Shown piece after piece: positions 23,494 through 52,810 of a stretch of 64,000 nucleotides of DNA. A program made the position numbers and the translations under genes. Each line of letters opens with the position of its first letter. Within the stretch, counting starts at the first letter, position 1. Origin of the DNA: Microbulbifer sp. MI-G (lineage in GTDB: Bacteria > Pseudomonadota > Gammaproteobacteria > Pseudomonadales > Cellvibrionaceae). The stretch covers positions 4,054,001-4,118,000 of the forward strand of contig NZ_CP098023.1 in the NCBI RefSeq assembly GCF_030440425.1. Reading direction: 5' to 3'. The notes under the pieces were generated by a model. It was not told the DNA's origin and did not search any database. It was given only the letters and a program-made list of their open reading frames with translations.

Positions 23494-23810
23494 TGAATCA
23501 CCCCGGGTTTCTCGGAGGCTAACTTTCTTGAGAGAATTAGCCAATGAGCAAACGACCTGGATACTCTCCCGAAGTACGGGAACGCGCAGTTCGCATGGTG
23601 TTGACCGGCGAGCACGAGCACCAATCACGCTGGGCAGCGATCACATCTATCGCTTCCAAGATCGGCTGCACACCCGAGACCCTACGATCATGGGCCAACA
23701 AGATGGAAGTCGACAATGGTACTAAACCCGGCACCACCAGCAGCGACACGGCCCGTCTCAAAGAGCTGGAGCGCGAAGTCCGCGAGCTGAAGCGCACACT
23801 GCGGTATACA
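23494..23810 (+). mobile_element. IS3-family element, left end with truncated OrfA
   Basis: The element begins near 23494 with a sequence (TGAATCACCCCGGGTTT) resembling IS3-family terminal inverted repeats. A start at 23544 follows, reading MSKRPGYSPEVRERAVRMVL, then WAAITSIASKIGCTPETLRSW and KELEREVRELKR. These are the OrfA helix-turn-helix and zipper of an IS3-family transposase. After ELKR (about 23800) the usual ANEILRKASAYF is replaced by unrelated sequence, and no OrfB or right end is seen. The element is therefore a 5' remnant. Confidence 0.7.
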
Positions 23811-23951
23811 AAGGACTTGTGCTTGAGGCACCGACTCAGGATAGTCTTCAACTGCATCTGTTGGGTTGGTGTTTTGGCGATCTTTTTTGATGAAACAGAT
23901 CTTATTCAAAACACACCAACAGATGCACCTTCCTCATTTCTGTCTGGATAG
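23544..23951 (+). pseudogene. Truncated IS3-family OrfA fused to unrelated sequence
   Basis: The 135-codon frame has a genuine OrfA N-terminal part of about 85 residues. The last 50 or so residues (from TLRYTKDL) are not transposase-like and read through a hairpin at 23854-23926. The programmed frameshift region and OrfB are missing, so no active transposase can be made. The DNA-binding part might still be expressed, but I regard it as decayed. Confidence 0.7.
23854..23926. repeat. Imperfect inverted repeat at IS breakpoint
   Basis: GCATCTGTTGGGTTGGTGTTTTG (23854-23876, in two near-identical parts) is the near-complement of CAAAACACACCAACAGATGC (23907-23926), with a spacer of about 30 nt containing GATC steps. 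It lies just past the point where OrfA similarity stops. It could be a MITE-like unit or a recombination scar. Confidence 0.45.
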
Positions 23952-31654: not shown

Positions 31655-34600
31655 TCAATTTATGGGGGTTAATTCACCAGATTTGAGGCGCATTTCTGGT
31701 GAATTGACAGCATCTACGCCACTACTATAGGGATTTACTGCAGTGAATATTGCCGGATCAATTTGTGTAAAGTCTTCCACCTCATTTTGTACAGCAGATT
31801 TCAATCCCTGGGCAGCCTGTGCACCGGCTATTGACTGGAGTTCGTCACCGGTACTGGTAAAAACAGGAACCTGGCCAATAAAATCCGGTTCATAATAGGT
31901 TATTGAAACAATCTCAACCCGGTTTGTGGCGTCCATACGCAGAGGATTAATGGCACTGCCAATTAAAGCCCATGGCTGAGTCTCAACCCCCAGCTTTACC
32001 ACACCTGCCGTGATATGGGTATCGCCATAGGTTTCAGCCGTCAGGTTTCCAAAACTGGCACTGGCCAGTGTGACAGTGCCGCGCCCTGCATTGATTTCAT
32101 CGATCACAAGATCCCCCTGGGCCAGGATGCTGATATCAATATCTCTCCCCGAAGTAGAAACGCCCAAAGTATTGACTGCTGTCTCAATATCAAGGTCCCC
32201 AGCAACAGTCAAATCCGCCCGGTCAGCCTTGAGGCGCCCTCCGATCGTGTCCAGTGAACTGCTGACAATCCTGATATCTCCTTCGCCATCATAGCCCAGA
32301 TACATGCCGCTCCTGGTAAATACCACACCTGCGCCACTCTGGTTCAAGATACCGGGACCTGTACTTTCAGTGGTGAAATCAAAGCCTAAATCCGTCTCCA
32401 GGGTAAAGTTGTTTGCAGTGTTCTTCAGCAATTCAAAGCCGTCAAATCGTATATTGCCCACTGAATTCCCTGTTGAGAATATTTGCCAGATACCATCAGC
32501 AGGGGTGTACTGGAATGCATCATTTCCACCGCCTCCAAATAGCGCTATTCCCTGGTTGCCTGCGGTATTCACCTGCACGTAATCATCCCCCTGGCCCAGG
32601 GAAATAGTGTCAATAACCGTACCAGAGAGCATGACCGAGTCATTACCCGCTCCCGCATTAATTTCCGTAAGTTGACCACCGCCCAGGGTGAACTGATCAA
32701 TACCGCTACCGGCAAATATCGATTCAACACCACTAAATATCAGGGACCTGCCATCGCTACTGACACGCTGCTGTGAATCATTGATATCCCAGTTAGCATC
32801 AATATCCGCACCGTGTATCACGTCTTTTCCGCTGCCCGAGATTAAGCGACTGAGATCGGCAAAGGCTATACCCCCGATGGTCATCGTATTCAAACTGCTG
32901 AATACATACTCGCTATCAATATCTTGGCCGGTGTAGGTTCCAGTGCCTTCCACCCCTGCAAGGTTTTCAAACAAAACAGAAATATTATTGATCGTGGCTT
33001 CAGCACTGCCGTCGACTAAAGCCCCCCCTTTCATGGTTGAAGTCCAGATAGCACCTTGCGCTGTTACGATATTATTGCCGCCTGCGCCGTCAACGTGATT
33101 CAAACCCGCAAAGCGAATGCCGGCTGCGCTGATATCTCCATTAGTAGCGAGCCCAAAGTGGTCGTCTCCACTGGTTCCCAATAATATACTGTCACGCCCG
33201 ATATTATTGACGCTCTCCAGCCCGTCAATGCGGATTCCGGCGGTTTCAAGGGTATTGTGGCCTGCCAGTTTGAGGATGGCTTGGTCAATCGGGTTTACAA
33301 GGTTTCGTGTTGTCGCACTTTGAATACCAGCAAAAGTAAGCGCGCCCGCGGCAAACGCATTATTGCTGCCGGTCAAAGTCAAACCATCGCTATAGGCAAG
33401 CGCGTTAAGGCTGTCGCTGCCACCCCGGCCCTGCACTGCAGTCAGGCCGGTAAAGGTCATTTGATAGGCTTCCACCCCACCACTGGCGTTCAGGGCAAAG
33501 GCGTCATCGTTCGCGGTGCCCAACAGGTTGGCACTGGTGGCGGTGAGGGTTTCCACATCGGAAAACAGGATACCGCTGTTGCGCGCTTCTTTATTATTGC
33601 CGGTCAGTAACCAGTCGGCAGCACCAATCCCATTCACTGTATCGATACCTCCAGCGGCATCTACGCTGCTGATACTGCTGAAAGCGATATCGTTGGCAAT
33701 CAGGGTATTTAAACCGGTTACTGAAAACGTATCCGCGTTATCCGAACCCGCCAGGCTACTGCCTGTCACCCTGTCGATCTCGCTAAAATGGATAGCACTG
33801 GTTACCACTTCCTGGCTGTTGCCAGTCAGGCTTACCAGATCCAATGCCACCAGGCTGTTACTGCCCAAACCTGCATTGACGTTATTCAACCCGCTAAAGT
33901 CGATATTTGCGGCATTCAGGGAATTTGTGCCGGTGATGGTAAACTGGTCATCCCCACTGCTGCCGGTTAAAAGCGCTGTGGTTGCACTGAAAATACCCTC
34001 GAAAGTCAGCCCACCCGCGGCAAGCGCATTATCTCTGCCAGCTAAAGTCAAACCATCGCTATAGGCAAGCGCGTTAAGGCTGTCGATACCGCCCCGGCCC
34101 TGCACTGCAGACAGGCCGGTAAAGGTCATTTCATAGGTTGCCACCTCACCGCCGGCACCCAGGGTAAAGGTATCGCTGTTGGCAGTACCCAGCAGATTGG
34201 CATTTATAGCAGTCAGGGTTTCCACATCGGAGAACAGGATGCCGCTGTTGCTGGCTTCTTTAGTATTGCCGGTCAGTAACCAGTCGGCGCTATCGGCTCC
34301 GTTGACCGTGTCGATACCGCCAAGGGCATTTACACTGCTGATACCATTAAAGACAATATCATTGGCCATCAGCGCATTCAGGCCAGTGATCTCGAACCTG
34401 TCCGCGTTATCCGAGCCCGCCAGGCTGCTGCCTGTCACCCTGTCGATCTCGCTAAAACGGATAGCACTGGTTACCACTTCCTGGCTGTTGCCAGTCAGGC
34501 TTACCAGATCCAGTGCCACCAGGCTGTCACTGCCCAAACCCGCATTGACGGTATCCACTTCGCTGAAGTTGATGTTTGCGGCATTCAGGGTATTGGTGCC

Positions 34601-37600
34601 AGTGATGGTAAACTGATCATCCCCACTACTGCCGGTTAAAAGCGCTGTGATTGCACTGAAAATACCCTCGAAAGTCAGCCCACCCGCGAGCAACTGGTTA
34701 TCGCTGCCAGTCAATTCCAGGCCATCAATGTAGGCAAGCGCGTTAAGGCTGTCGCTGCCGCCCCGGCCCTGCACTGCAGTCAGGCCGGTAAAGGTCATTT
34801 CATAGGTTGCCACCTCACCGCCGGCACCCAGGGTAAAGGTATCACTGTCGGGAGTACCCAACAGGTTGGCACTGGTGGCGGTAAGGGTTTCCACCTCGGA
34901 GAACAGGATACCGCTGTTGCGCGCTTCTTTATTATTGCCAGTCAGTAACCAGTCGGCAGCACCAATCCCATTCACTGTATCGATACCTCCAGCGGCATCT
35001 ACGCTGCTGATACCATTAAAGGCAATATCATTGGCCATCAGTGCATTTAAACCGGTTACTGAGAAAATATCCGCATCATCCGAGCCCGCCAGGCTGTCGC
35101 CTGTAACACTGTCGATCTCATTAAAACGGATTCCACTGGTTACCACTTCCTGGCTATTGCCAGTCAGGGTTACCAGATCCAGTGCCACCAGGCTGTCACT
35201 GCCCAAACCCGCATTGACGGTATTCAACCCGCTAAAGTCGATATTCGCGGTATTCAGGGCATTTGTGCCGGTGATGGTAAACAGGTCATCCCCACTGCTG
35301 CCGGTTAAAAGCACTGTGGTTGCACTGAAAATACCCTCGAAAGTCAGCCCACCCGCGAGCAACTGGTTATCGCTGCCAGTCAATTCCAGGCCATCAATGT
35401 AGGCAAGCGCGTTAAGGCTGTCGCTGCCGCCCCGGCCCTGCACTGCAGTCAGGCCGGTAAAGGTCATTTCATAGGTTGCCACCTCACCGCCGGCACCCAG
35501 GGTAAAGGTATCGCTGTCGGCAGTACCCAACAGGTTGGCACTGGTGGCGGTAAGGGTTTCCACATCGGAAAACAGGATGCCGCTGTTGCTGGCTTCTTTA
35601 TTATTGCCAGTCAGTAACCAGTCGGCACCACCAATCCCATTCACTGTATCGATACCTCCAGCGGCATCTACGCTGCTGATATTGCTGAAAGCGATATCGT
35701 TGGCCATCAGTGCATTTAAACCGGTTACTGAGAAAATATCCGCATCATCCGAGCCCGCCAGGCTGTTACTGCCCAAACCCGCATTGACGGTACCCACTTC
35801 GCTGAAGTTGATGTTTGCGGCATTCAGGGTATTGGTGCCAGTGATGGTAAACTGGTCATCTCCACTGCTGCCGGTTAAAAGCGCTGTGATTGCACTGAAA
35901 ATACCCTCGAAAGTCAGCCCACCCGCGGCAAGCGCATTATCTCTGCCAGCCAAAGTCAAACCATCGCTATAGGCAAGCGCGTTAAGGCTGTCGCTGCCAC
36001 CCCGGCCCTGCACTGCAGTCAGGCCGGTAAAGGTCATTTGATAGGCTTCCACCCCACCACTGGCGTTCAGGGCAAAGGCGTCATCGTTCGCGGTGCCCAA
36101 CAGGTTGGCACTGGTGGCGGTGAGGGTTTCCACATCGGAAAACAGGATACCGCTGTTGCGCGCTTCTTTATTATTGCCGGTCAGTAACCAGTCGGCAGCA
36201 CCAATCCCATTCACTGTATCGATACCTCCAGCGGCATCTACGCTGCTGATACTGCTGAAAGCGATATCGTTGGCAATCAGGGTATTTAAACCGGTTACTG
36301 AAAACGTATCCGCGTTATCCGAACCCGCCAGGCTACTGCCTGTCACCCTGTCGATCTCGCTAAAATGGATAGCACTGGTTACCACTTCCTGGCTGTTGCC
36401 AGTCAGGCTTACCAGATCCAATGCCACCAGGCTGTTACTGCCCAAACCTGCATTGACGTTATTCAACCCGCTAAAGTCGATATTTGCGGCATTCAGGGAA
36501 TTTGTGCCGGTGATGGTAAACTGGTCATCCTCACTGCTGCCGGTTAAAAGCGCTGTGGTTGCACTGAAAATACCCTCGAAAGTCAGCCCACCCGCGGCAA
36601 GCGCATTATCTCTGCCAGCTAAAGTCAAACCATCGCTATAGGCAAGCGCGTTAAGGCTGTCGATACCGCCCCGGCCCTGCACTGCAGACAGGCCGGTAAA
36701 GGTCATTTCATAGGTTGCCACCTCACCGCCGGCACCCAGGGTAAAGGTATCGCTGTTGGCAGTACCCAGCAGATTGGCATTTATAGCAGTCAGGGTTTCC
36801 ACATCGGAAAACAGGATGCCGCTGTTGCTGGCTTCTTTAGTATTGCCGGTCAGTAACCAGTCGGCGCTATCGGCTCCGTTGACCGTGTCGATACCGCCAA
36901 GGGCATTTACACTGCTGATACCATTAAAGGCAATATCATTGGCCATCAGCGCATTCAGGTCGGTAATCTCGAACCTGTCCGCGTTATCCGAACCCGCCAG
37001 GCTACTGCCTGTAACACTGTCGATCTCGCTAAAACGGATAGCACTGGTTACCACTTCCTGGCTGTTGCCAGTCAGGCTTACCAGATCCAGTGCCACCAGG
37101 CTGTCACTGCCCAAACCCGCATTGACGGTATCCACTTCGCTGAAGTTGATGTTTGCGGCATTCAGGGTATTGGTGCCAGTGATGGTAAACAGGTCATCCC
37201 CACTGCTGCCGGTTAAAAGCGCTGTGGTTGCACTGAAAATACCCTCGAAAGTCAGCCCACCCGCTAGCAACTGGTTATCGCTGCCAGTCAATTCCAGGCC
37301 AGCACTGTAGGCAAGGGCATCAAGACTGTCGCTGCCACCCCGGCCCTGCACTGCAGTCAGGCCGGTAAAGGTCATTTCATAGGTTGTCACCTCACCGCCG
37401 GCACCCAGGGTAAAAGTATCGCTGTCGGCAGTACCCAACAGGTTGGCACTGGTGGCGGTAAGGGTTTCCACCTCGGAGAACAGGATACCGCTGTTGCTGG
37501 CTTCTTTATTATTGCCGGTCAGTAACCAGTCGGCACCACCAATCCCATTCACTGTATCGATACCTCCAGCGGCATCTACGCTGCTGATATTGCTGAAAGC

Positions 37601-40600
37601 GATATCGTTGGCAATCAGTGCATTTAAACCGGTTACTGAGAAAATATCCGCATCATCCGAGCCCACCAGGCTGCCGCCTGTAACACTGTTAATCTCGCTA
37701 AAACGGATTCCACTGGTTACTGCTTCCTGACTGTTACCAGTCAGGCTTACCAGATCCAATACCACCAGGCTGTCACTGCCCAAACCCGCATTGACGGTAT
37801 TCACTTCGCTGAAGTTGATGTTCGCTGTATTCAGGGAATTTGTGCCGGTGATGGTAAACAGGTCATCCCCACTGCTGCCGGTTAAAAGCACTGTGGTTGC
37901 ACTGAAAATACCCTCGAAAGTCAGCCCACCCGCGAGCAACTGGTTATCGCTGCCAGTCAATTCCAGGCCATCAATGTAGGCAAGCGCGTTAAGGCTGTCG
38001 CTGCCGCCCCGGCCCTGCACTGCAGTCAGGCCGGTAAAGGTCATTTCATAGGTTGCCACCTCACCGCCGGCACCCAGGGTAAAGGTATCGCTGTCGGCAG
38101 TACCCAACAGGTTGGCACTGGTGGCGGTAAGGGTTTCCACATCGGAAAACAGGATGCCGCTGTTGCTGGCTTCTTTATTATTGCCAGTCAGTAACCAGTC
38201 GGCACCACCAATCCCATTCACTGTATCGATACCTCCAGCGGCATCTACGCTGCTGATATTGCTGAAAGCGATATCGTTGGCCATCAGTGCATTTAAACCG
38301 GTTACTGAGAAAATATCCGCATCATCCGAGCCCGCCAGGCTGTTACTGCCCAAACCCGCATTGACGGTACCCACTTCGCTGAAGTTGATGTTTGCGGCAT
38401 TCAGGGTATTGGTGCCAGTGATGGTAAACTGGTCATCTCCACTGCTGCCGGTTAAAAGCGCTGTGATTGCACTGAAAATACCCTCGAAAGTCAGCCCACC
38501 CGCGGCAAGCGCATTATCTCTGCCAGCCAAAGTCAAACCATCGCTATAGGCAAGCGCGTTAAGGCTGTCGCTGCCACCCCGGCCCTGCACTGCAGTCAGG
38601 CCGGTAAAGGTCATTTGATAGGCTTCCACCCCACCACTGGCGTTCAGGGCAAAGGCGTCATCGTTCGCGGTGCCCAACAGGTTGGCACTGGTGGCGGTGA
38701 GGGTTTCCACATCGGAAAACAGGATACCGCTGTTGCGCGCTTCTTTATTATTGCCGGTCAGTAACCAGTCGGCAGCACCAATCCCATTCACTGTATCGAT
38801 ACCTCCAGCGGCATCTACGCTGCTGATACTGCTGAAAGCGATATCGTTGGCAATCAGGGTATTTAAACCGGTTACTGAAAACGTATCCGCGTTATCCGAA
38901 CCCGCCAGGCTACTGCCTGTCACCCTGTCGATCTCGCTAAAATGGATAGCACTGGTTACCACTTCCTGGCTGTTGCCAGTCAGGCTTACCAGATCCAATG
39001 CCACCAGGCTGTTACTGCCCAAACCTGCATTGACGTTATTCAACCCGCTAAAGTCGATATTTGCGGCATTCAGGGAATTTGTGCCGGTGATGGTAAACTG
39101 GTCATCCCCACTGCTGCCGGTTAAAAGCGCTGTGGTTGCACTGAAAATACCCTCGAAAGTCAGCCCACCCGCGAGCAACTGGTTATCGCTGCCAGTCAAT
39201 TCCAGACCATCAATGTAGGCAAGCGCGTTAAGGCTGTCGCTGCCGCCCCGGCCCTGCACTGCAGTCAGGCCGCTAAAGGTCATTTCGTAAACTTCCACCC
39301 CACCACCGGCGTTCAGGGCAAAGGCGTCATCGTTCGCGGTGCCCAACAGGTTGGCACTGGTGGCGGTAAGGGTTTCCACATCGGAGAACAGGATGCCGCT
39401 GTTGCGCGCTTCTTTATTATTGCCAGTCAGTAACCAGTCGGCACCACCAATCCCATTCACTGTATCGATACCTCCAGCGGCATCTACGCTGCTGATATTG
39501 CTGAAAGCGATATCGTTGGCAATCAGTGCATTTAAACCGGTTACTGAGAAAATATCCGCATCATCCGAGCCCACCAGGCTGCCGCCTGTAACACTGTCGA
39601 TCTCACTAAAATGGATTCCACTGGTTACTGCTTCCTGACTGTTACCAGTCAGGCTTACCAGATCCAATACCACCAGGCTGTCACTGCCCAAACCCGCATT
39701 GACGGTATTCAACCCGCTAAAGTCGATATTCGCGGTATTCAGGGCATTTGTGCCGGTGATGGTAAACAGGTCATCCCCACTGCTGCCGGTTAAAAGCACT
39801 GTGGTTGCACTGAAAATACCCTCGAAAGTCAGCCCACCCGCGAGCAACTGGTTATCGCTGCCAGTCAATTCCAGGCCAGCACTGTAGGCAAGGGCATCAA
39901 GACTGTCGCTGCCACCCCGGCCCTGCACTGCAGTCAGGCCGGTAAAGGTCATTTCATAGGTTGTCACCTCACCGCCGGCACCCAGGGTAAAAGTATCGCT
40001 GTCGGCAGTACCCAACAGGTTGGCACTGGTGGCGGTAAGGGTTTCCACCTCGGAGAACAGGATACCGCTGTTGCTGGCTTCTTTATTATTGCCGGTCAGT
40101 AACCAGTCGGCACCACCAATCCCATTCACTGTATCGATACCTCCAGCGGCATCTACGCTGCTGATATTGCTGAAAGCGATATCGTTGGCAATCAGTGCAT
40201 TTAAACCGGTTACTGAGAAAATATCCGCATCATCCGAGCCCACCAGGCTGCCGCCTGTAACACTGTTAATCTCGCTAAAACGGATTCCACTGGTTACTGC
40301 TTCCTGACTGTTACCAGTCAGGCTTACCAGATCCAATACCACCAGGCTGTCACTGCCCAAACCCGCATTGACGGTATCCACTTCGCTGAAGTTGATGTTT
40401 GCGGCATTCAGGGTATTGGTGCCAGTGATGGTAAACAGGTCATCCCCACTGCTGCCGGTTAAAAGCGCTGTGGTTGCACTGAAAATACCCTCGAAAGTCA
40501 GCCCACCCGCTAGCAACTGGTTATCGCTGCCAGTCAATTCCAGGCCAGCACTGTAGGCAAGGGCATCAAGACTGTCGCTGCCACCCCGGCCCTGCACTGC

Positions 40601-43600
40601 AGTCAGGCCGCTAAAGGTCATTTGATAGGCTTCCACCCCACCACCGGCGTTCAGGGCAAAGGCGTCATCGTTCGCGGTGCCCAACAGGTTGGCACTGGTG
40701 GCGGTAAGGGTTTCCACCTCGGAGAACAGGATACCGCTGTTGCTGGCTTCTTTATTATTGCCGGTCAGTAACCAGTCGGCACCACCAATCCCATTCACTG
40801 TATCGATACCTCCAGCGGCATCTACGCTGCTGATATTGCTGAAAGCGATATCGTTGGCAATCAGTGCATTTAAACCGGTTACTGAGAAAATATCCGCATC
40901 ATCCGAGCCCACCAGGCTGCCGCCTGTAACACTGTTAATCTCGCTAAAACGGATTCCACTGGTTACTGCTTCCTGACTGTTACCAGTCAGGCTTACCAGA
41001 TCCAATACCACCAGGCTGTCACTGCCCAAACCCGCATTGACGGTATTCACTTCGCTGAAGTTGATGTTCGCTGTATTCAGGGAATTTGTGCCGGTGATGG
41101 TAAACAGGTCATCCCCACTGCTGCCGGTTAAAAGCGCTGTGGTTGCACTGAAAATACCCTCGAAAGTCAGCCCACCCGCGAGCAACTGGTTATCGCTGCC
41201 AGTCAATTCCAGACCATCAATGTAGGCAAGCGCGTTAAGGCTGTCGCTGCCGCCCCGGCCCTGCACTGCAGTCAGGCCGCTAAAGGTCATTTCGTAAACT
41301 TCCACCCCACCACCGGCGTTCAGGGCAAAGGCGTCATCGTTCGCGGTGCCCAACAGGTTGGCACTGGTGGCGGTAAGGGTTTCCACATCGGAGAACAGGA
41401 TGCCGCTGTTGCGCGCTTCTTTATTATTGCCAGTCAGTAACCAGTCGGCACCACCAATCCCATTCACTGTATCGATACCTCCAGCGGCATCTACGCTGCT
41501 GATATTGCTGAAAGCGATATCGTTGGCAATCAGTGCATTTAAACCGGTTACTGAGAAAATATCCGCATCATCCGAGCCCACCAGGCTGCCGCCTGTAACA
41601 CTGTCGATCTCACTAAAATGGATTCCACTGGTTACTGCTTCCTGACTGTTACCAGTCAGGCTTACCAGATCCAATACCACCAGGCTGTCACTGCCCAAAC
41701 CCGCATTGACGGTATTCAACCCGCTAAAGTCGATATTCGCGGTATTCAGGGCATTTGTGCCGGTGATGGTAAACAGGTCATCCCCACTGCTGCCGGTTAA
41801 AAGCGCTGTGGTTGCACTGAAAATACCCTCGAAAGTCAGCCCACCCGCGAGCAACTGGTTATCGCTGCCAGTCAATTCCAGGCCAGCACTGTAGGCAAGG
41901 GCATCAAGACTGTCGCTGCCACCCCGGCCCTGCACTGCAGTCAGGTCGGTAAAGGTCATTTCATAGGTTGTCACCTCACCGCCGGCACCCAGGGTAAAAG
42001 TATCGCTGTCGGCAGTACCCAACAGGTTGGCACTGGTGGCGGTAAGGGTTTCCACATCGGAGAACAGGATACCGCTGTTGTGGGCTTCTTTATTATTGCC
42101 GGTCAGTAACCAGTCGGCACCATCGGCGCCGATTACGCTGTCGCTGCCACCTCGGCCCTGCACTGCAGTCAGGCCGCTAAAGGTCATTTGATAGGCTTCC
42201 ACCCCACCACCGGCGTTCAGGGCAAAGGCGTCATCGTTCGCGGTGCCCAACAGGTTGGCACTGGTGGCGGTAAGGGTTTCCACCTCGGAGAACAGGATGC
42301 CGCTGTTGCGCGCTTCTTTATTATTGCCGGTCAGTAACCAGCTGGTCCCATCGATACCAGTAACAATATCCTCTCCGCCCCCGAGATCCAGTGCCTCAAT
42401 ACCGGTAAAGGCAATATTATTGGTGGTAAAAGCATAATCACCATCCACCCAAACACTGTCGGCATCTGCCGACAACGTAAACTTGTCTGATCCGCTTCCC
42501 GCTGTGACACTACCAGCATTGGAAACAAGAATATTGCCCAGCACATTATTTGTGCCTGAAATCTGGGATGTATCAAATGGATTAATCCCTACAGTTAGGG
42601 AGAAATCGGCAACATTGATGCTGCCTAGATTAACAAATGATCCCCCGGAGTTTGCAACCAGAATTCCATTGCCTGCAGAGATGGACCCAGTTTCAGAGAT
42701 CTGTATACCGCTAAAGGAAGATAAAGTCAGGGTATTGGCAGAACTCCACGCCAGGGAACCAGAGACAAGAATACCTTCGGAGAAATCTGCCCCAGAGCCG
42801 GGGGATACATCCCCATCAGGACCACTGGCCGTATTCGCGTCGGTTACACTTATTTCAATGTTAGTGTTCTCTAAATAAGTGCTAATACTCGCGTTTGAAA
42901 TACAATTTACAGAACAGGCTTCAGCAATTTCCATCCAGCCCGGGTCCAACAGCCAGTCGCCAGTATCTCCGCTGCCATGGCTTATGGTGGAAATAAATAA
43001 TGCGTCCTCATCAAGGTAGAGATACTGCTTTCCGGAGGTTTCTATTAAACCTCCATCGCCGCCAGATTCACCGGATTCAGCGCGGATACTGCCGGCAATA
43101 TAAGTGCTGCTGTCAGCCCAGACAATAACTTCACCACCGTTTCCATTTCCTCTACCACTGACATTAATTTCAGCCTCAGCAGTTAGCCTGGTTGTTTGTG
43201 CATTGCGGACATCGGGGTTGTCACCATGAAAATCGCCACCGACCAGAACTTTACCTCCAGAGACAAATCCCCTCGCATCTATGGTCCCACTGACAAGAAC
43301 CTCATCACCAAGCACCATTACCTGGCCGCCGTTACCACTTTGACCCTGAACAGTAATGATGCCACTGTGCTCTGCAGTGTTGCCCTCCATGACTACCTCA
43401 CCACCAGTGGTGCCAGATGCCTCTAAACTGCCACTATTGACAACACCGGAACCAGAGCCGAATAGACGAATCTTCCCTCCACTATTGTCAATTCCACGAG
43501 CATGTATGCTCCCTTCATTATTAACTGCCGCGGTGAACAGCCCCTCAGAGACACTGGCTTCCATCAGAACCTGGGCACCATTTATTGTGCCGGTATTCAA

Positions 43601-44302
43601 CACCGCACTATCTACCCCAAGTTCGTTTTCCATTACCTCTTTAGTTACTTTCAGTCCAATCAAGCCGTCAGTATCAAAAGTAAGGAAAGCTTCATCAGCT
43701 GCTGCCAGACTGACCAAGTCAGCTTGAATTAATCCCGTAGAGGTGTTTGTCACCTGTTTGCCAACCAGTACCGCACTGGCTGCATTAATGACCCCTTTGT
43801 TGATCACATATCCGGCAGAGCCACTTTCACCTTTAAATGTAAAGTCGCCATTTATAAAATCTTCAGGAGCCATATCAAGTCCGGATGCGGTAAGAGCGCC
43901 CACATTCACTGTGGCGCTCTCTGTAAATAACACACCCCGAGGATTCACCAGAATCACATGCCCGTTCGATTCGAGGGCTCCACGAATCGTACTTGGGTTT
44001 TGATCCAGAATACGATTAAGCACAATGGAAGAAGCATTGGGCTGTAGAAATTTAACCAACTCCTCCTCGCTCAAATTGAAAGAATCCCAGTCAATTGACA
44101 GTAAATCTGTCACCTGATCAATCGTCGTTGTAGTGCCGTTCACATCAATAGTGCCACTGCCACCGGTTACAACACCGCCTTCAGGGCCAGCATGGAGCAG
44201 CGGGCTTACCAAACTGGCCAGGATCCCAGCACAGGCCACACGTGACAGCTTAATTCCTCGAGATATTTTTTTTAATTCGGGCTTGTTTATTTTGATATTC
44301 AT
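31655..44302 (-). CDS. Giant TpsA-type exoprotein with tandem 223-residue repeats
   Basis: A 4215-residue secreted protein of the filamentous-haemagglutinin/two-partner secretion class. An extended signal peptide ends near Ala38 (ILASLVSPLLHA). The TPS domain (about 40-300) has QNPSTIRGALESNGHV, and NPRG at 120-123 takes the place of the usual NPNG. Beta-helix strands continue to about 620. Residues about 620-3660 are tandem units of 223 residues, each built of three related modules of about 74. The module pattern is LTGN..EA..SGI.FS, then LLG(S/T)..DD.F, then GG.D.(L/V), faintly reminiscent of calcium-binding repeats. The last 550 residues are a non-repeated beta-helix tail without an anchor. 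Its transporter is the next gene upstream, 55 bp away. An adhesin, contact-dependent toxin carrier or biofilm protein are all possible; no toxin domain was recognised. Confidence 0.93.
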   Translation of the reverse strand: MNIKINKPELKKISRGIKLSRVACAGILASLVSPLLHAGPEGGVVTGGSGTIDVNGTTTTIDQVTDLLSIDWDSFNLSEEELVKFLQPNASSIVLNRILDQNPSTIRGALESNGHVILVNPRGVLFTESATVNVGALTASGLDMAPEDFINGDFTFKGESGSAGYVINKGVINAASAVLVGKQVTNTSTGLIQADLVSLAAADEAFLTFDTDGLIGLKVTKEVMENELGVDSAVLNTGTINGAQVLMEASVSEGLFTAAVNNEGSIHARGIDNSGGKIRLFGSGSGVVNSGSLEASGTTGGEVVMEGNTAEHSGIITVQGQSGNGGQVMVLGDEVLVSGTIDARGFVSGGKVLVGGDFHGDNPDVRNAQTTRLTAEAEINVSGRGNGNGGEVIVWADSSTYIAGSIRAESGESGGDGGLIETSGKQYLYLDEDALFISTISHGSGDTGDWLLDPGWMEIAEACSVNCISNASISTYLENTNIEISVTDANTASGPDGDVSPGSGADFSEGILVSGSLAWSSANTLTLSSFSGIQISETGSISAGNGILVANSGGSFVNLGSINVADFSLTVGINPFDTSQISGTNNVLGNILVSNAGSVTAGSGSDKFTLSADADSVWVDGDYAFTTNNIAFTGIEALDLGGGEDIVTGIDGTSWLLTGNNKEARNSGILFSEVETLTATSANLLGTANDDAFALNAGGGVEAYQMTFSGLTAVQGRGGSDSVIGADGADWLLTGNNKEAHNSGILFSDVETLTATSANLLGTADSDTFTLGAGGEVTTYEMTFTDLTAVQGRGGSDSLDALAYSAGLELTGSDNQLLAGGLTFEGIFSATTALLTGSSGDDLFTITGTNALNTANIDFSGLNTVNAGLGSDSLVVLDLVSLTGNSQEAVTSGIHFSEIDSVTGGSLVGSDDADIFSVTGLNALIANDIAFSNISSVDAAGGIDTVNGIGGADWLLTGNNKEARNSGILFSDVETLTATSANLLGTANDDAFALNAGGGVEVYEMTFSGLTAVQGRGGSDSLNALAYIDGLELTGSDNQLLAGGLTFEGIFSATTALLTGSSGDDLFTITGTNSLNTANINFSEVNTVNAGLGSDSLVVLDLVSLTGNSQEAVTSGIRFSEINSVTGGSLVGSDDADIFSVTGLNALIANDIAFSNISSVDAAGGIDTVNGIGGADWLLTGNNKEASNSGILFSEVETLTATSANLLGTANDDAFALNAGGGVEAYQMTFSGLTAVQGRGGSDSLDALAYSAGLELTGSDNQLLAGGLTFEGIFSATTALLTGSSGDDLFTITGTNTLNAANINFSEVDTVNAGLGSDSLVVLDLVSLTGNSQEAVTSGIRFSEINSVTGGSLVGSDDADIFSVTGLNALIANDIAFSNISSVDAAGGIDTVNGIGGADWLLTGNNKEASNSGILFSEVETLTATSANLLGTADSDTFTLGAGGEVTTYEMTFTGLTAVQGRGGSDSLDALAYSAGLELTGSDNQLLAGGLTFEGIFSATTVLLTGSSGDDLFTITGTNALNTANIDFSGLNTVNAGLGSDSLVVLDLVSLTGNSQEAVTSGIHFSEIDSVTGGSLVGSDDADIFSVTGLNALIANDIAFSNISSVDAAGGIDTVNGIGGADWLLTGNNKEARNSGILFSDVETLTATSANLLGTANDDAFALNAGGGVEVYEMTFSGLTAVQGRGGSDSLNALAYIDGLELTGSDNQLLAGGLTFEGIFSATTALLTGSSGDDQFTITGTNSLNAANIDFSGLNNVNAGLGSNSLVALDLVSLTGNSQEVVTSAIHFSEIDRVTGSSLAGSDNADTFSVTGLNTLIANDIAFSSISSVDAAGGIDTVNGIGAADWLLTGNNKEARNSGILFSDVETLTATSANLLGTANDDAFALNASGGVEAYQMTFTGLTAVQGRGGSDSLNALAYSDGLTLAGRDNALAAGGLTFEGIFSAITALLTGSSGDDQFTITGTNTLNAANINFSEVGTVNAGLGSNSLAGSDDADIFSVTGLNALMANDIAFSNISSVDAAGGIDTVNGIGGADWLLTGNNKEASNSGILFSDVETLTATSANLLGTADSDTFTLGAGGEVATYEMTFTGLTAVQGRGGSDSLNALAYIDGLELTGSDNQLLAGGLTFEGIFSATTVLLTGSSGDDLFTITGTNSLNTANINFSEVNTVNAGLGSDSLVVLDLVSLTGNSQEAVTSGIRFSEINSVTGGSLVGSDDADIFSVTGLNALIANDIAFSNISSVDAAGGIDTVNGIGGADWLLTGNNKEASNSGILFSEVETLTATSANLLGTADSDTFTLGAGGEVTTYEMTFTGLTAVQGRGGSDSLDALAYSAGLELTGSDNQLLAGGLTFEGIFSATTALLTGSSGDDLFTITGTNTLNAANINFSEVDTVNAGLGSDSLVALDLVSLTGNSQEVVTSAIRFSEIDSVTGSSLAGSDNADRFEITDLNALMANDIAFNGISSVNALGGIDTVNGADSADWLLTGNTKEASNSGILFSDVETLTAINANLLGTANSDTFTLGAGGEVATYEMTFTGLSAVQGRGGIDSLNALAYSDGLTLAGRDNALAAGGLTFEGIFSATTALLTGSSEDDQFTITGTNSLNAANIDFSGLNNVNAGLGSNSLVALDLVSLTGNSQEVVTSAIHFSEIDRVTGSSLAGSDNADTFSVTGLNTLIANDIAFSSISSVDAAGGIDTVNGIGAADWLLTGNNKEARNSGILFSDVETLTATSANLLGTANDDAFALNASGGVEAYQMTFTGLTAVQGRGGSDSLNALAYSDGLTLAGRDNALAAGGLTFEGIFSAITALLTGSSGDDQFTITGTNTLNAANINFSEVGTVNAGLGSNSLAGSDDADIFSVTGLNALMANDIAFSNISSVDAAGGIDTVNGIGGADWLLTGNNKEASNSGILFSDVETLTATSANLLGTADSDTFTLGAGGEVATYEMTFTGLTAVQGRGGSDSLNALAYIDGLELTGSDNQLLAGGLTFEGIFSATTVLLTGSSGDDLFTITGTNALNTANIDFSGLNTVNAGLGSDSLVALDLVTLTGNSQEVVTSGIRFNEIDSVTGDSLAGSDDADIFSVTGLNALMANDIAFNGISSVDAAGGIDTVNGIGAADWLLTGNNKEARNSGILFSEVETLTATSANLLGTPDSDTFTLGAGGEVATYEMTFTGLTAVQGRGGSDSLNALAYIDGLELTGSDNQLLAGGLTFEGIFSAITALLTGSSGDDQFTITGTNTLNAANINFSEVDTVNAGLGSDSLVALDLVSLTGNSQEVVTSAIRFSEIDRVTGSSLAGSDNADRFEITGLNALMANDIVFNGISSVNALGGIDTVNGADSADWLLTGNTKEASNSGILFSDVETLTAINANLLGTANSDTFTLGAGGEVATYEMTFTGLSAVQGRGGIDSLNALAYSDGLTLAGRDNALAAGGLTFEGIFSATTALLTGSSGDDQFTITGTNSLNAANIDFSGLNNVNAGLGSNSLVALDLVSLTGNSQEVVTSAIHFSEIDRVTGSSLAGSDNADTFSVTGLNTLIANDIAFSSISSVDAAGGIDTVNGIGAADWLLTGNNKEARNSGILFSDVETLTATSANLLGTANDDAFALNASGGVEAYQMTFTGLTAVQGRGGSDSLNALAYSDGLTLTGSNNAFAAGALTFAGIQSATTRNLVNPIDQAILKLAGHNTLETAGIRIDGLESVNNIGRDSILLGTSGDDHFGLATNGDISAAGIRFAGLNHVDGAGGNNIVTAQGAIWTSTMKGGALVDGSAEATINNISVLFENLAGVEGTGTYTGQDIDSEYVFSSLNTMTIGGIAFADLSRLISGSGKDVIHGADIDANWDINDSQQRVSSDGRSLIFSGVESIFAGSGIDQFTLGGGQLTEINAGAGNDSVMLSGTVIDTISLGQGDDYVQVNTAGNQGIALFGGGGNDAFQYTPADGIWQIFSTGNSVGNIRFDGFELLKNTANNFTLETDLGFDFTTESTGPGILNQSGAGVVFTRSGMYLGYDGEGDIRIVSSSLDTIGGRLKADRADLTVAGDLDIETAVNTLGVSTSGRDIDISILAQGDLVIDEINAGRGTVTLASASFGNLTAETYGDTHITAGVVKLGVETQPWALIGSAINPLRMDATNRVEIVSITYYEPDFIGQVPVFTSTGDELQSIAGAQAAQGLKSAVQNEVEDFTQIDPAIFTAVNPYSSGVDAVNSPEMRLKSGELTPIN
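33528..36104 (-). repeat. Higher-order 2577-bp repeat, copy 1
   Basis: Three 669-bp units plus one 570-bp unit. The same order recurs in the next 2577 bp, with a nearly identical block around the short unit and its flanks. Confidence 0.85.
35535..36104 (-). repeat. Shortened 570-bp unit, copy 1
   Basis: It lacks 99 bp (33 codons), joining GLGSNSL straight to AGSDDADIF and skipping the LDLVSLTGNSQE module start. The join is at a short GS(N/D)SL-like homology and keeps the frame. Confidence 0.8.
36105..38681 (-). repeat. Higher-order 2577-bp repeat, copy 2
   Basis: Same unit order as 33528-36104. The second and third units have diverged more than the first and fourth, which implies patchwork exchange between copies rather than simple duplication. 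Confidence 0.82.
38112..38681 (-). repeat. Shortened 570-bp unit, copy 2
   Basis: Translation appears identical to the 570-bp unit at 35535, including the same 99-bp deletion. The deletion therefore predates the duplication. Confidence 0.8.
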
Positions 44303-44357: not shown

Positions 44358-46337
44358 TCAATTGTAAAATACAGAGAAATCGGTATAGACCGTTGGCTGA
44401 TCTTCGCCAACGGTTAGATTAGGTATAGAGGAACCTGAATCCAGTGGCCAAGCAACAGAAACCTTGCTGGAGAACCTGTCGTTCCAGTTAAATTTAAACA
44501 ACATGCCGGCTCCTGAGAACCGGGCCCAGTCATCCTTCAGCCCGGCTTCATAATTGTTCACATATCCATACCCGATATCTGCAATAAGAGCCACTTGAAA
44601 CATATCATTCAGGCGCTGCCCGAAAAGCTCCGGATCAATGGCGTCAGGAAAACTCATATACCATTCAGCAGATAAAACGCCACCCCGGTCTGCGGAAAAG
44701 TCCCTCACAGAAAAAGCCCGGACACTATTGGCCCCGCCCAGGGAAAACTGCTCAAATCCAGGCAAATTACTGTCGCTATATTGCGCCCGGCTTTTTAATA
44801 TCAGCCTGGAGTGATCATCAGAAAACGGCATTGGCAGAAAGATCAATGAGTTGGTATTTAAAGATAGCTTTGTGAATCTATCCCCTCTGCCTTTCTCAAC
44901 TGTATTTTTGTGTTCACCATATTGCAGTGTGGTATTCACTATATTCAGCATCGAAAGAAAACCATTTGAAAGGCTGTCTATATAGAAACCCACCTCACCA
45001 CCATACACATGGTCGTTTGTGAAACTTAGAATTCTATCAAGCCCTGGAATTCCACCAATATCGGATTCTTTGTCAGTCAGTGCAAGGGAACCGGTAACAT
45101 TGAAATCCCGTGATCTTATGAATTTATGATCTATCGAAAAAGTATAGCGCTTGTTGAGACCATTAATATCCAGCACGTTAATGATATTGTTTTCATTTTC
45201 TTCGTCATATAGGCTGAAATCATTATAGTCAGCAGACAGCTGCACTCTGGTACGAGGGCTGATCAACGGAAAACTGTATTTCAACTGCGCCAGTTCCGAG
45301 CCCACAAAATCATTTGAGCCAGGATTGGATTTCAGATAGCCGACAGTCAAGGCATCGCCAATCCCCAACGGGTTGAGCCAGTCTATGGTGGCGTATGCTC
45401 GCTGATCACCAGTATACAATGAGCCATGATTATCCACCCTGAAAGAGGCTTTCCAGCGATTCGTATCGCGTACTTTTAAATTGAGCTTGGTCTCCCCGGG
45501 ATTTTCGCCCGCACTGAAATAGCCCGTGACATTCAGAGCAGGCAGATCATTCAGCAGGTATAATCCCGCCTCAATATCTGCATGATTGACCAGATTTCCA
45601 CGCTGATCCTCAAAAGGAGCAACCAATTTCCCCTGTGCATATTGATCGTTATCATCGGCAACAATCTGGCCCAGCAAACCCTCTTGTACGGTGAGCGTTA
45701 CCACTCCGTTTTCCACATCCTGCGCAGGGATTTGAACCTGAGCCAGAAAAAGCCCCTGGCGCCGGTAAAAACCGGTGAGTTCTGCCGCAATCTCTTCAAG
45801 ATCCGCATAGCTGAGCCCGCGATCCTCATTTTGTCTTTCAATCACACTGACGAGTTTTATTAATTCTGCAGGACCCAGCCCTTGCGGGTTAAGCTGGGCC
45901 TTCATACTATCGAGCAAGCCAGCAAGCTCTTCCAGTTCCTCAAGGGTAAACCCGCTGGCAAGGCGTTTATCTTCCTTCATAAATTGTATCCGCAATGATT
46001 CAGCTAATTGCTCAATGATTTCGCGATCAATACCAAGCTCTGGATATTCCTCCAATCTGTGAAACCGGAACTTTTTTACGGCAATCCTCGGCCCTTCATT
46101 ACGCCGGGAAATCTCGGGAATCCGGGTATTGAGATTTGGAGCTTCCGCTTCATAGGTGCGCTGTAAAAAATCTTTGGTGATATCCGGTTCGTTAACCGTA
46201 GGCGTATTCTGGTCGAATGCATCCCTTACGCGACTGCGAAAACCGGCATTATCTTCCTGGGCCTGACCTGGCGTTATGGGCAGTACAAACGTGATACTTA
46301 CCAAAAGTGCCAATTTGATTTTTTGAAATCCAGGCAT
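44358..46337 (-). CDS. TpsB outer-membrane transporter (ShlB/FhaC/HecB family)
   Basis: Exports the adjacent TpsA. The start at ATG 46335-46337 follows GGAGG; a second ATG four codons upstream is less well placed. A signal peptide (LALLVSITFVLPITPGQAQ) precedes a helical linker. The POTRA region follows, with ELTGFYRRQGLFLAQVQIPAQDVENGVVTLTVQEG, then the 16-strand barrel ending in TDFSVFYN with a C-terminal aromatic. It has 659 residues, longer than FhaC, because of an extra N-terminal insertion between the signal and POTRA (about 30-160). The conserved VRGY loop-6 motif appears as VRAF in LGGANSVRAFSVRDF. It lies 83 bp downstream of the kinase gene. Confidence 0.93.
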   Translation of the reverse strand: MPGFQKIKLALLVSITFVLPITPGQAQEDNAGFRSRVRDAFDQNTPTVNEPDITKDFLQRTYEAEAPNLNTRIPEISRRNEGPRIAVKKFRFHRLEEYPELGIDREIIEQLAESLRIQFMKEDKRLASGFTLEELEELAGLLDSMKAQLNPQGLGPAELIKLVSVIERQNEDRGLSYADLEEIAAELTGFYRRQGLFLAQVQIPAQDVENGVVTLTVQEGLLGQIVADDNDQYAQGKLVAPFEDQRGNLVNHADIEAGLYLLNDLPALNVTGYFSAGENPGETKLNLKVRDTNRWKASFRVDNHGSLYTGDQRAYATIDWLNPLGIGDALTVGYLKSNPGSNDFVGSELAQLKYSFPLISPRTRVQLSADYNDFSLYDEENENNIINVLDINGLNKRYTFSIDHKFIRSRDFNVTGSLALTDKESDIGGIPGLDRILSFTNDHVYGGEVGFYIDSLSNGFLSMLNIVNTTLQYGEHKNTVEKGRGDRFTKLSLNTNSLIFLPMPFSDDHSRLILKSRAQYSDSNLPGFEQFSLGGANSVRAFSVRDFSADRGGVLSAEWYMSFPDAIDPELFGQRLNDMFQVALIADIGYGYVNNYEAGLKDDWARFSGAGMLFKFNWNDRFSSKVSVAWPLDSGSSIPNLTVGEDQPTVYTDFSVFYN

Positions 46338-46420
46338 CTCCCCCTCCATGCAATTATTGATTCAACCATCGGCTGTATCGGCACGATTTCCTTTCGCCAT
46401 AAAATGCTAACAGGAACGGA

Positions 46421-49039
46421 CTAATTCACATCCCTGACAAGACGGAAACCCGTCAATGCATCGGCCTGCCCACTGTGAAGCTGCTTGGTTGTCGCCAGAC
46501 AGCGGCTCATGGGATCTTTGCGGCTACCCCCCAGTACCAGTAGCTCACCACTGGTAGCGCGCGCCCACTCCTGAACATTGCCAACAGCATTCACCAGCCC
46601 AAATGCGTTGGGGGAACCTGCCCGGGCGGGCACCAGCTCGGCACCCTTTTCAATGCCGCCGTATTTCAGGTGACAATTGCGATCGGCAACTTCTGCCTGG
46701 CCTTTCGCGCTGGCAGCAGCAAACCATTCCTGCTCGGAGGGCAACCGGTAGGTGTAGCCAGTCTCATCGCTCAACCAGTTGAGGTACGCTTCAACATTTG
46801 CCAGAGCCAGGGTAGTTGCCGGAAGATTTCCGGCTCCCAGATCCAGTGCCCCGCACTGGTCGGTGGCCCGGCAGAAAGGCTCAAGATCGCTGTTGCTGAT
46901 CTCATATTTACCAACGGCCAGGGCCCTGCCACCTGCTCCCTTAACCACCACCATGGCGGGACTCAAACTGCCATCGGCGAGACGGTCATGGCAGCTGTAG
47001 CGATCCCCCCTGCCGCCACTGCCGGGGGACAGGTGCCCGCAATAGTCCAGCCTGAAATCCCTGAGAGGCTGATAACCAGGTAACAGCGCCCTGAACTGAT
47101 CTAGCAGGGGCTCTGTGCGCACCGGGTCCTCTCTACCAAGGCGGGCTGCGCAGTTGCTCAATTCTTCCCCCACAACCGGGCGTATTTGCCGGGCTTTAAC
47201 GCTATCCAGCTTTGCCAATTGCGACAGTTGTGCCCCCACACCGGCCACATTCATGCCGAAGTCACAGGTCAGCGCACCTTCCATATCATCCAGTACGGCA
47301 TCAATCCGCCTCTGTTTCCTGGCCGCTTCCTGCCGGAGCTGGGCGAGCAGCTCTTGCTGGTGCAAACGCTCAGCTTCGCGTTCGGCCTGTAAGCGTTCCG
47401 CCTCAAGACGTGCTCGCAGGCTCTCTCTATCCCTGGCAAGCTGTGACTGGATCGCGGCGGCCTGGCTTGACACTCCGTACCAGTTAGATGCACTGTTAAG
47501 CATGGCATCGGCCTGATCCAGGTTACCCAGATTCAACTGGCCAGTGGCTGCTGCCAAAAATAGCTCAGATACCTCGCGTCGCGAGGCATCCGGGTAAGTC
47601 TCATCCCCCGGATTCAGCTCGGCGTATTCTTGAAGCTCCAGTTGAAGATCCTTCTCCCAGGCTGGTGTCAGGATGCTGAGGCCAATGAGTCTTGCTATCG
47701 CCTCTTTCTTATCGGCGATACGCCGTTGCACAAGCTCCTCTTGCAACTTTCGCTCCAGTTCAGCCTTCACTTTCGCCTGCTCAACGGAATTCTGTTGCTG
47801 CAAATGGCTGTAGCCTGCTCCTGCACCCACCAGCATCACAGCGAAAATGCCACCGAGCACCCATTTCCAGGTATTGCTGACAAAAAAAGCCTGAACAAAT
47901 TTCTCTACAGTATCTGTGCGATCCTCACGCCTGAGTTCAAGAGCCAACTGCAGCGCACGCCACTGCCGCCGGCTCAGACCCTTGATGCGGCTGGGTCGCA
48001 GCTTTTGTTCAAAAGCCTTATCCGCTGGCACCTTGTCGTAGGGATGGCGCCCGCAGAACAGCTCATAGGCAACACACCCCAGGGCAAAAACATCATCACT
48101 GGGCGCTGGTTCACCCCCTTTTAGCATCTCTAGACTGGCATAGGCCGGGGTCAGGGCGCCCAGACTGCCAGCGTCAAATACGGTCGTCTCACCGCTCTTG
48201 CCAGCCAGCCCCCCTTCGGATACAGCTCGGGCAATACCAAAGTCGAAGACTTTGGCTCCTTTCTTGCTGGTAACAAAAATATTGCCCGGTTTAAAATCTG
48301 AATGGACAATCTTGTGGGAGTGGGCATAGATCAGGGCCTGGGAGATATCCCAAAACACCTTGCGGGCCTTTTCAGGCTCAAGACCAGAATCAGCATGCTG
48401 GCGCAGTAACTTGTCCAATGGAGCACCTTCAAGGTATTCCATGGTCATAAACACACGCTCCCCATCGCGATCAAAATCATAGACCGTTACGATATTGGGG
48501 TGGGCCAGGGTCTGCGACTTTCGCGCTTCGCGCTGCAGGGAGATAAAAGCATCCGGATGTTGCTGAAAGTCATCATTCAACAACTTGATTGCTACATAGG
48601 GTTCGCTGTCACTGGCTTCCAATTTGCGATGATCAAGGGCTTTGTATACAGCCCCCATACCACCAACACCAAGCAACTTATCCAGTTCGAAGCGCCCCTT
48701 GATAACAGTCCTGGTTATTGCATCAGCGGGAGGGGCTTCAGCTACTCCGGTTGTCTCTGTAAGATTTACCGATACGCCACCTGCCAATCGGGTCGCTTTT
48801 ACCCGTGGGCCAGCGCCTTGTTTTGGGGTCGAACTCAGGACAGTGTCATCAATTCCAGATTCTAAACCCTCAGAAGGTGTTAATAACTTTGCGCCCCGTA
48901 CAGGCGGGTGATCATTGGCCCCGGTAAACTCCTGTTGAACAACAACAGTGGCATCGCCATCCCCTGCGAGCGTATCCGCAGCTTGCTCGAGACCGGGCCC
49001 AGGGCCACCTGGTCGAACAATACGCGTCTTATCGTTCAA
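46421..49039 (-). CDS. Membrane Ser/Thr kinase fused to FGE-sulfatase-like domain
   Basis: An 872-residue Hanks-type kinase. The order is: an N-terminal tail of about 115 residues with three D-x-T-like sites (DKTRIV, DATVVV, DDTVL), then the kinase domain (117-385). The kinase carries the GVGGMG loop, Lys152, HSDFKPGN with catalytic Asp248, and DFG 266-268. A transmembrane helix (391-410), coiled coils rich in Glu/Arg/Gln, and a C-terminal FGE/SUMF1-like domain (about 710-872) follow. That last domain includes RLPSEQEWFAAA, GLVNAVGNVQEW and TGFRLVRD. The HRD motif is HSD, so it is a non-RD kinase. Similar kinase-FGE proteins (PpkA type) occur in T6SS loci. It sits between hcp (divergent) and tpsB (same strand). 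Confidence 0.92.
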   Translation of the reverse strand: MNDKTRIVRPGGPGPGLEQAADTLAGDGDATVVVQQEFTGANDHPPVRGAKLLTPSEGLESGIDDTVLSSTPKQGAGPRVKATRLAGGVSVNLTETTGVAEAPPADAITRTVIKGRFELDKLLGVGGMGAVYKALDHRKLEASDSEPYVAIKLLNDDFQQHPDAFISLQREARKSQTLAHPNIVTVYDFDRDGERVFMTMEYLEGAPLDKLLRQHADSGLEPEKARKVFWDISQALIYAHSHKIVHSDFKPGNIFVTSKKGAKVFDFGIARAVSEGGLAGKSGETTVFDAGSLGALTPAYASLEMLKGGEPAPSDDVFALGCVAYELFCGRHPYDKVPADKAFEQKLRPSRIKGLSRRQWRALQLALELRREDRTDTVEKFVQAFFVSNTWKWVLGGIFAVMLVGAGAGYSHLQQQNSVEQAKVKAELERKLQEELVQRRIADKKEAIARLIGLSILTPAWEKDLQLELQEYAELNPGDETYPDASRREVSELFLAAATGQLNLGNLDQADAMLNSASNWYGVSSQAAAIQSQLARDRESLRARLEAERLQAEREAERLHQQELLAQLRQEAARKQRRIDAVLDDMEGALTCDFGMNVAGVGAQLSQLAKLDSVKARQIRPVVGEELSNCAARLGREDPVRTEPLLDQFRALLPGYQPLRDFRLDYCGHLSPGSGGRGDRYSCHDRLADGSLSPAMVVVKGAGGRALAVGKYEISNSDLEPFCRATDQCGALDLGAGNLPATTLALANVEAYLNWLSDETGYTYRLPSEQEWFAAASAKGQAEVADRNCHLKYGGIEKGAELVPARAGSPNAFGLVNAVGNVQEWARATSGELLVLGGSRKDPMSRCLATTKQLHSGQADALTGFRLVRDVN

Positions 49040-49649: not shown

Positions 49650-50138
49650 ATGGCTATCTATATGAACTTCAACAACAAATCTCATAAAGGCAACGTTACC
49701 GCACAAGGGTACGAAGACTGGATCGAGGTAGACAGCTTCAACTTTGGTGTTGGTCGTGGAATCACCATGGAGGCCGGAGCCACCTCCAACCGCGAAGCCT
49801 CTCGCCCCAGCCTGAGCGAGGTGACGCTCACCAAGCGTATCGATGCCGCTTCAGGCGGTTTGTTCAAAGCCTCTGTGACCGGTGACGAAGGTGTACCCGT
49901 GGAGATCCATGTAGTGCAAACCGGTGCCAACTCTGTAGAAAAATACGCAGTTTACAAGTTGGAGAACGTCCTGATTTCTTCTTACAGTATTGGCGCCTCA
50001 GCAGGCGGTGCACCGCAAGAGTCCATATCCTTGAGTTTTGCCAAAATTGAGGCCGACCTCAACCATGCGGACAAGACCAACAAGAATCCGAAAAATATGC
50101 GGGTTGGATACGACCTCACCACGGCTACCCCACTGTAA
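49650..50138 (+). CDS. hcp: Hcp family T6SS tube protein
   Basis: A 162-residue hexameric ring protein forming the inner tube expelled by type VI secretion. The N-terminus AIYMNFNNKSHKGNVTAQGYEDWIEVDSF, TSNREASRPSLSEVTLTKRID and the C-terminal KIEADLNHADKTNKNPKNMRVGYDL are typical of the Hcp1 group. AGAGGG lies before the ATG. It is the first gene of the plus-strand island, and a hairpin separates it from vgrG, which would let it be made in excess. Confidence 0.95.
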   Translation: MAIYMNFNNKSHKGNVTAQGYEDWIEVDSFNFGVGRGITMEAGATSNREASRPSLSEVTLTKRIDAASGGLFKASVTGDEGVPVEIHVVQTGANSVEKYAVYKLENVLISSYSIGASAGGAPQESISLSFAKIEADLNHADKTNKNPKNMRVGYDLTTATPL

Positions 50139-50169
50139 GCGATTCGGTTTCTTTCGAGTACTGGGCGCT

Positions 50170-50200
50170 GGCCTGCAGAATCTCCTGCGGGCCTCGCTTT
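50170..50200 (+). terminator. Attenuator-like hairpin between hcp and vgrG
   Basis: GGCCTGCAG and CTGCGGGCC (9 bp, one G-T pair) with loop AATCTC, followed by TCGCTTT. It is probably a partial terminator lowering vgrG expression relative to hcp. Confidence 0.55.
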
Positions 50201-50304
50201 ACGGGTCTTTAGCTGAGCGCTTTACGAGCCCTCACCCAAGGATCCGCTGGTCCACAGTAATTTTTCTATTCCCTAAGGCACCGTCGGGATAGTTGGGGCT
50301 GCCC

Positions 50305-52212: not shown

Positions 52213-52228
52213 CGGGAATCGAGACTCA

Positions 52229-52807: not shown

Positions 52808-52810
52808 TGC

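Follow-up and report, generated by a model that had tools for sequence, protein, structure and literature searches.

A two-partner secretion exoprotein of Microbulbifer sp. MI-G with nested, mosaic repeats: a probable surface stalk of variable length

CdrA of Pseudomonas aeruginosa is the exoprotein of a two-partner secretion (TPS) system, and TPS adhesins of its type combine a C-terminal cysteine hook with a LapG cleavage motif. The source on Periscope Proteins, which describes variable-length stalks kept by near-identical DNA repeats, includes CdrA among them, reports that its MBG_2 repeats vary in number between strains, and presents high DNA identity as the presumed driver of intragenic recombination in such proteins (PMC8201768). 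TPS exoproteins (TpsA) with long repeats are also well known (PMC5422565). Here, we report on tpsA, a giant gene located in a stretch of 64,000 nucleotides of Microbulbifer sp. MI-G (NZ_CP098023.1, positions 4,054,001 to 4,118,000; hereafter the window, within which all coordinates are given). As in CdrA, the product would be a surface protein with near-identical long repeats, the units U1-U13 sharing 83.7-100% identity at the DNA level. Unequal crossover that preserves the frame, together with gene conversion, very probably drives the turnover of these repeats, in a TPS exoprotein that is likely to form an adhesive stalk of variable length. The repeats all lie within one open reading frame (ORF) of 4215 codons, laid out as follows.

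31655..44302, minus strand: tpsA, the TPS exoprotein gene carrying the repeats (from its ORF, profile matches and homologues)
42350..42490, minus strand: incomplete module (aa 605-651) bordering the array on its N-terminal side
42125..42340, minus strand: lone full module, aa 655-726
33617..42115, minus strand: 13 tandem units U1-U13, aa 730-3562 (11 of 669 bp, 2 of 570 bp)
38201..38770, minus strand: U6, short unit of 570 bp with a 99-bp in-frame deletion at the CAGCCTGG direct repeat, identical to U10
35624..36193, minus strand: U10, short unit of 570 bp, identical to U6
37838..39107, minus strand: first copy of a 1270-bp exact repeat (offset 2577)
35261..36530, minus strand: second copy of the 1270-bp exact repeat (offset 2577)
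41107..41804, minus strand: 698-bp exact repeat with its partner at 39100-39797 (offset 2007)
39843..40377, minus strand: 535-bp exact repeat with its partner at 37266-37800 (offset 2577)
32948..33616, minus strand: U14, whose first third resembles the other units and whose remainder is degenerate, at the exit of the array

A profile made from one unit revealed 44 modules of 72-77 residues (four of them partial) between aa 605 and 3748. As proposed in a first-pass annotation of the same DNA, three modules (spacings of about 77, 72 and 74 residues) build a unit of 223 residues, and the lone 228-bp module that it placed at the N-terminal edge is found ahead of the first unit, together with one partial module. 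The anchor DWLLTGN recurs in the protein at intervals of 223, 223, 223, 223, 223, 190, 223, 223, 223, 190, 223, 223 and 223 residues (669 bp, and 570 bp for the two short units), which reproduces the 669-bp spacing and the order 669-669-669-570 twice in a row that had been reported, in a register that differs by 89 bp. The long blocks that looked identical around both short units are exact over 1270 bp at offset 2577, and this is the longest exact internal repeat of tpsA, the others being of 698, 646, 580 and 535 bp. Besides, the position pairs 39351/41358 and 37443/40020, previously noted as matching, each fall inside an exact repeat, the one of 698 bp at offset 2007 for the first pair and the one of 535 bp at offset 2577 for the second. 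Every position and offset given in the first-pass annotation was thereby confirmed. At the level of units, U6 and U10 are identical, followed by U9/U13 (99.7%) and U1/U4 (99.3%). The long units carry CAGCCTGG at both ends of the 99-bp stretch missing from U6 and U10, and this organization suggests a deletion by slippage or recombination that was later duplicated with its surroundings. When one unit was matched against its own genome, all 17 matches were inside tpsA, so that a sequence donor must be sought within the gene or in another cell. A protein search with two units returned three proteins, at least one of which is named partial. A 37-residue half-module was also considered as the basic unit and rejected, since the self-alignment of halves was not significant (z of -0.2 to 2.4, 8 modules).

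The units are mosaics of one another to an extent above chance. This was assessed on the 11 full units by a pairwise homoplasy index (PHI)-type statistic, a test of shared runs and a painting by best exact matches, U6 and U10 being left out of the first two. The PHI-type statistic (window 5) was 0.069, whereas 1000 permutations averaged 0.285 and none reached a value that low. The four-gamete test, applied to 140 biallelic informative sites, failed for 2771 of 9730 site pairs, incompatible sites were far rarer between neighbours than expected from permutation, and the Hudson-Kaplan minimum amounted to 17 exchange events. Shared runs were over-long in 41 of 55 pairs, and in 23 of 55 with third codon positions only. 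Painting exposed where partners change: U2 is composed of U5 (bases 1-340) and U7 (341-669), U7 of U11 (1-363) and U2 (364-669), and U5 of U2 and then U9/U13; none of these three units has a private base. The mosaic identity put forward in the first-pass annotation is thus borne out by the partner switches, the PHI-type result and the long shared runs. By contrast, tandem duplication followed by ordinary divergence, in which similarity would mirror the age of each duplication and protein selection with no exchange among older copies, is very unlikely to account for the array. The dominance of the offsets 669 and 2577 speaks for it, as does the fact that a few large duplications (U9/U13, U6/U10) account for much of the identity, but the switches inside units are sharp, the incompatible sites are strongly clustered and require at least 17 exchanges, and the long-run signal persists at third codon positions. 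Simple tandem divergence without mosaic blocks, named in the first-pass annotation as a refuting outcome, does not fit.

Synonymous divergence (dS) adds a time scale to these exchanges. U6/U10 and U1/U4 show a dS of 0 and U9/U13 one of 0.006, the median over 78 pairs being 0.23 and the maximum 0.43; protein-level selection alone would not yield such near-zero values. Compared with the nearest species examined (L058), the TpsA N-terminus has a dS of 0.37 and TpsB, the cognate exporter, one of 0.51, indicating that the exchanges behind the three closest pairs are younger than the species split. Conversely, unit pairs with a dS of up to 0.43 show that homogenization is patchy and that copies are not uniformly alike. 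The earlier idea that crossover or conversion keeps the copies alike therefore holds for exchange itself, as seen in painting, dS, the run and incompatibility tests and close relatives, and has to be toned down for the alikeness.

Length and sequence also change between close relatives. The 27 closest proteins, the one of the window included, range from 2934 (named partial) to 7270 aa. Three Microbulbifer thermotolerans proteins from draft contigs, with an N-terminal identity of 97.6-99.3%, measure 3248, 3568 and 3904 aa and differ by gaps of 374, 302, 223, 151, 151, 76 and 75 residues, near multiples of a module, besides gaps of 1-20 residues. In the same vein, P0008 and P0010 (from contigs measuring at most 4.96 and 4.81 Mb), 98.3% identical at the N-terminus, are separated by one gap of 218 residues and six of 1-2 residues. 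The variation in repeat number between strains anticipated by the first-pass annotation is thus seen in the relatives compared, and may extend to the species of the window. P0010 and P0011 are of equal length and differ at 29 positions, 28 of which are within the repeats; in 25 of these 29 cases, the residue of the other strain is already present at the equivalent place in a sister copy of P0010. Such differences between close relatives point to ongoing exchange, the main caveat being sequencing errors in repeats.

At the scale of the genus, unit matches were found in 38 of 48 genomes, and 37 of 48 have a TpsB with an identity of 56% or more; the sole genome with repeats and no TpsB match (G047) has an assembly that is 88% complete. 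Among the exoprotein genes of 17 further genomes, exact internal repeats of at least 500 bp occur in 8 and of 200-499 bp in 4, and the leading offset varies with the genome (2082 bp in G014, 3624 in G010, 2931 in G044, 1587 in G028). Over 18 genes, 355 of 509 full modules find their best match in their own gene, as do 39 of 41 in the window gene. A separate observation concerns G014 (L062), in which an exact self-match of 9980 bp at offset 2082 corresponds to nearly six identical super-repeats and the ORF exceeds the fetched locus. Another concerns G003 (L063, P0009), where the exoprotein ORF ends at about 15.7 kb of the locus and the conserved C-terminus is found at 18840-19829, reflecting either an interrupted gene or an assembly error. 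From a 10-kb exact self-match to no exact repeat of at least 100 bp, a single genus hence offers a natural series for the growth, shrinkage and frame-keeping of giant repeat proteins.

The identity of the protein follows from its N-terminus and from the adjoining gene.

43424..44185, minus strand: TPS secretion domain spanning aa 40-293 (PF05860 with an E of 6.6e-25), with adhes_NPXG (TIGR01901) matched over aa 70-142
31655..32947, minus strand: C-terminal region, aa 3786-4215, the last 330 aa of which are kept in most homologues
44358..46349, minus strand: tpsB, outer-membrane exporter (ShlB PF03865 and POTRA_2 PF08479)

The N-terminus scores 88.9 bits against PF05860 (cut-off 33.5), which places it among TPS domains, and 71.8 bits against TIGR01901 of NCBIfam (cut-off 29.1), and the cognate tpsB ends 55 bp upstream of tpsA. 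Judged from its sequence, the gene product is the exoprotein of a TPS system, and the former call of a giant exoprotein gains precision from PF05860 at the N-terminus and the adjoining TpsB gene. A Pfam scan of the whole 4215-aa protein matched no family, although the N-terminal piece alone strongly matches PF05860, and the repeats alone gave nothing above cut-off against Pfam, NCBIfam and PDB sequences. A structural model of aa 1-955 is mostly beta, with strands at a predicted local distance difference test (pLDDT) of 87-95 through aa 661-910.

By homology with known systems, TpsB would thread TpsA across the outer membrane, and TpsA would fold outside the cell as a long β-helix, each module contributing about three turns, in order to display or project adhesive surfaces along a rod. 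The array would be altered by recombination between its own near-identical units: unequal crossover in frame would gain or lose entire modules or blocks (for instance the block of 859 residues formed by three long units plus a short one), and gene conversion would shift patches between copies. As the reading frame would be kept at every step, the length and the surface of the stalk could vary without loss of the protein. While the mosaicism, the near-zero dS of some pairs and the near-whole-module length differences between close relatives are direct observations, we infer surface display, adhesion and a benefit of length variation.

Several points weigh against this view. Some bear on the extent of exchange: 5 of the 17 further genes of the genus have no exact repeat of at least 100 bp, and in 4 of 18 genes, all without long repeats, every module is best matched by one from another gene. 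The process is thus not general in the family, and concerted change is confined to part of it. Four of the 29 differences between P0010 and P0011 are not explained by sister copies; three are clustered (4493-4496) and resemble a local paired shift, and the fourth (634) has no sister copy. The permutation tests presume exchangeable sites. On the structural side, the model of aa 1-955 has a pLDDT under 50 over parts of aa 97-219, within the TPS domain, and was built on an alignment whose repeats are broken by long gaps; the fold search made with it mostly covered aa 123-642, its match list being filled by the TPS domain with the repeats barely covered, and a first model (446 repeat residues, 13-row alignment) was poor (pLDDT 52.7) and not used for fold search. 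Finally, in the M. thermotolerans drafts, repeats may have collapsed and gap placement is uncertain, and the unit copy number in the window strain rests on its assembly. Nevertheless, it is highly improbable that the number or order of units is an artefact of collapsed or duplicated near-identical repeats. The window genome consists of 2 contigs and is 99.99% complete, the ORF stays open across 12.6 kb, most units have distinct site combinations, and single-contig relatives (G010, G044, G028) carry internal super-repeats of other lengths; this stands against the proneness of exact 1270-bp repeats to misassembly and the contigs of the nearest relative (G006/L058), which end inside the array.

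The C-terminal region gives further indications on function. Five G.G.D RTX-like motifs lie at aa 3823-3930 (32513-32836), and the motif GLGSDSL was found in eight repeat units; both are possible calcium sites. The only cysteines are residues 24, 463 and 467, none near the C-terminus, and a search of TpsA for a LapG-like [TPA]AAG motif found none. The C-terminal toxin of CdiA is variable, unlike the last 330 residues here, which are 58-69% identical between the window protein and 23 of 26 homologues, the outliers being P0009 (22%, interrupted gene), P0026 (22%, named partial) and P0027 (42%, other genus). A CdiA-like arm for contact-dependent toxin delivery, with the repeats as its filament instead of a structural stalk, can hardly be reconciled with this conserved end and with the lack of any toxin family above cut-off in the last 581 residues (Pfam and NCBIfam; no immunity-gene search was made), even if TPS systems include contact-dependent inhibition (CDI) systems (PMC5422565) and a group of hcp, vgrG and lipase genes is nearby.

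Upstream of tpsB, a third gene may belong to the same system.

46421..49039, minus strand: Ser/Thr kinase that has a single candidate membrane span and, at its C-terminus, an FGE-sulfatase-like domain

Its most hydrophobic stretch begins near residue 393, and the kinase domain would be cytoplasmic and the FGE-like domain periplasmic. Homologues of the kinase and of TpsB (E <= 1e-60) are together present in 37 of 48 genus genomes and together absent from the 11 others. Of the 37 genomes with tpsB, 36 have the kinase gene immediately upstream of it in the same orientation, at a distance of 67-230 bp (for G043, whose kinase frame is broken into two pieces, the piece beside tpsB was counted as adjacent); the exception is G007, with 15 kb between both genes. 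A TpsB (E <= 1e-60) is also present in 39 genomes from other genera of the family, and the kinase is adjacent in ten (G128, G129, G145, G150, G154, G162, G164-G167); in thirteen of the remaining 29, both genes are on one contig 13-49 kb apart, and the last sixteen show a greater distance, separate contigs or no listed neighbour. Ten adjacent cases against thirteen at 13-49 kb indicate that the link is not strict. It is tempting to imagine a three-gene, kinase-gated adhesin, in which a membrane kinase with an FGE-like sensor controls the export or display of a stalk retuned by recombination, but we consider this doubtful. A search of open-access titles and abstract openings found no description of a TPS system with an operon kinase, which is weak evidence of absence, and our results bring to attention a conserved kinase gene beside a TPS system.

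On the plus strand, divergent from the kinase, 49650-55337 encodes hcp (PF05638), vgrG, DUF6931, DUF6795 and a class 3 lipase, a group that resembles an orphan type VI effector cluster. Whether the kinase is part of a type VI system was also considered; hcp and vgrG adjoin it, but the VipB genes are located elsewhere in the genome, at 205-220 kb of the chromosome and far from the window. At the other end of the window, a lower-G+C stretch begins after a tRNA-Leu (21686-21772) and contains a small ORF with a transposase HTH (HTH_Tnp_1) at 23544-23951; it may be an old island edge.

To conclude, the product of tpsA is likely a β-helical surface stalk of variable length, by analogy with CdrA (Periscope Proteins) and EtpA. 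It differs from CdrA in several respects. Its repeats match no Pfam family above cut-off and are hence not MBG_2, its array is nested in an order of 223 and 859 residues, and a kinase gene adjoins its operon. Without [TPA]AAG and a C-terminal cysteine, it also falls outside the CdrA type of TPS adhesin. EtpA of enterotoxigenic Escherichia coli has four repeats against 13 units here, and no similarity between the repeat sequences was detected. In HMW1/HMW2 of Haemophilus influenzae (hmwABC), the accessory gene encodes a glycosyltransferase, in contrast to the kinase found here, and no glycosyltransferase was seen among the scanned ORFs neighbouring the operon. The third genes of HMW-type systems (PMC5422565) suggest, by analogy, that the kinase may modify or regulate the secretion system. 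The conserved end of TpsA also sets it apart from CDI effectors with their variable C-terminal toxin. An open-access literature search on Microbulbifer with two-partner secretion or filamentous hemagglutinin found no title on this protein, again weak evidence of absence. Our work carries the concept of surface stalks that vary in length over to an environmental genus, and tpsA joins this known kind of repeat stalk with an unusually clear nested order.

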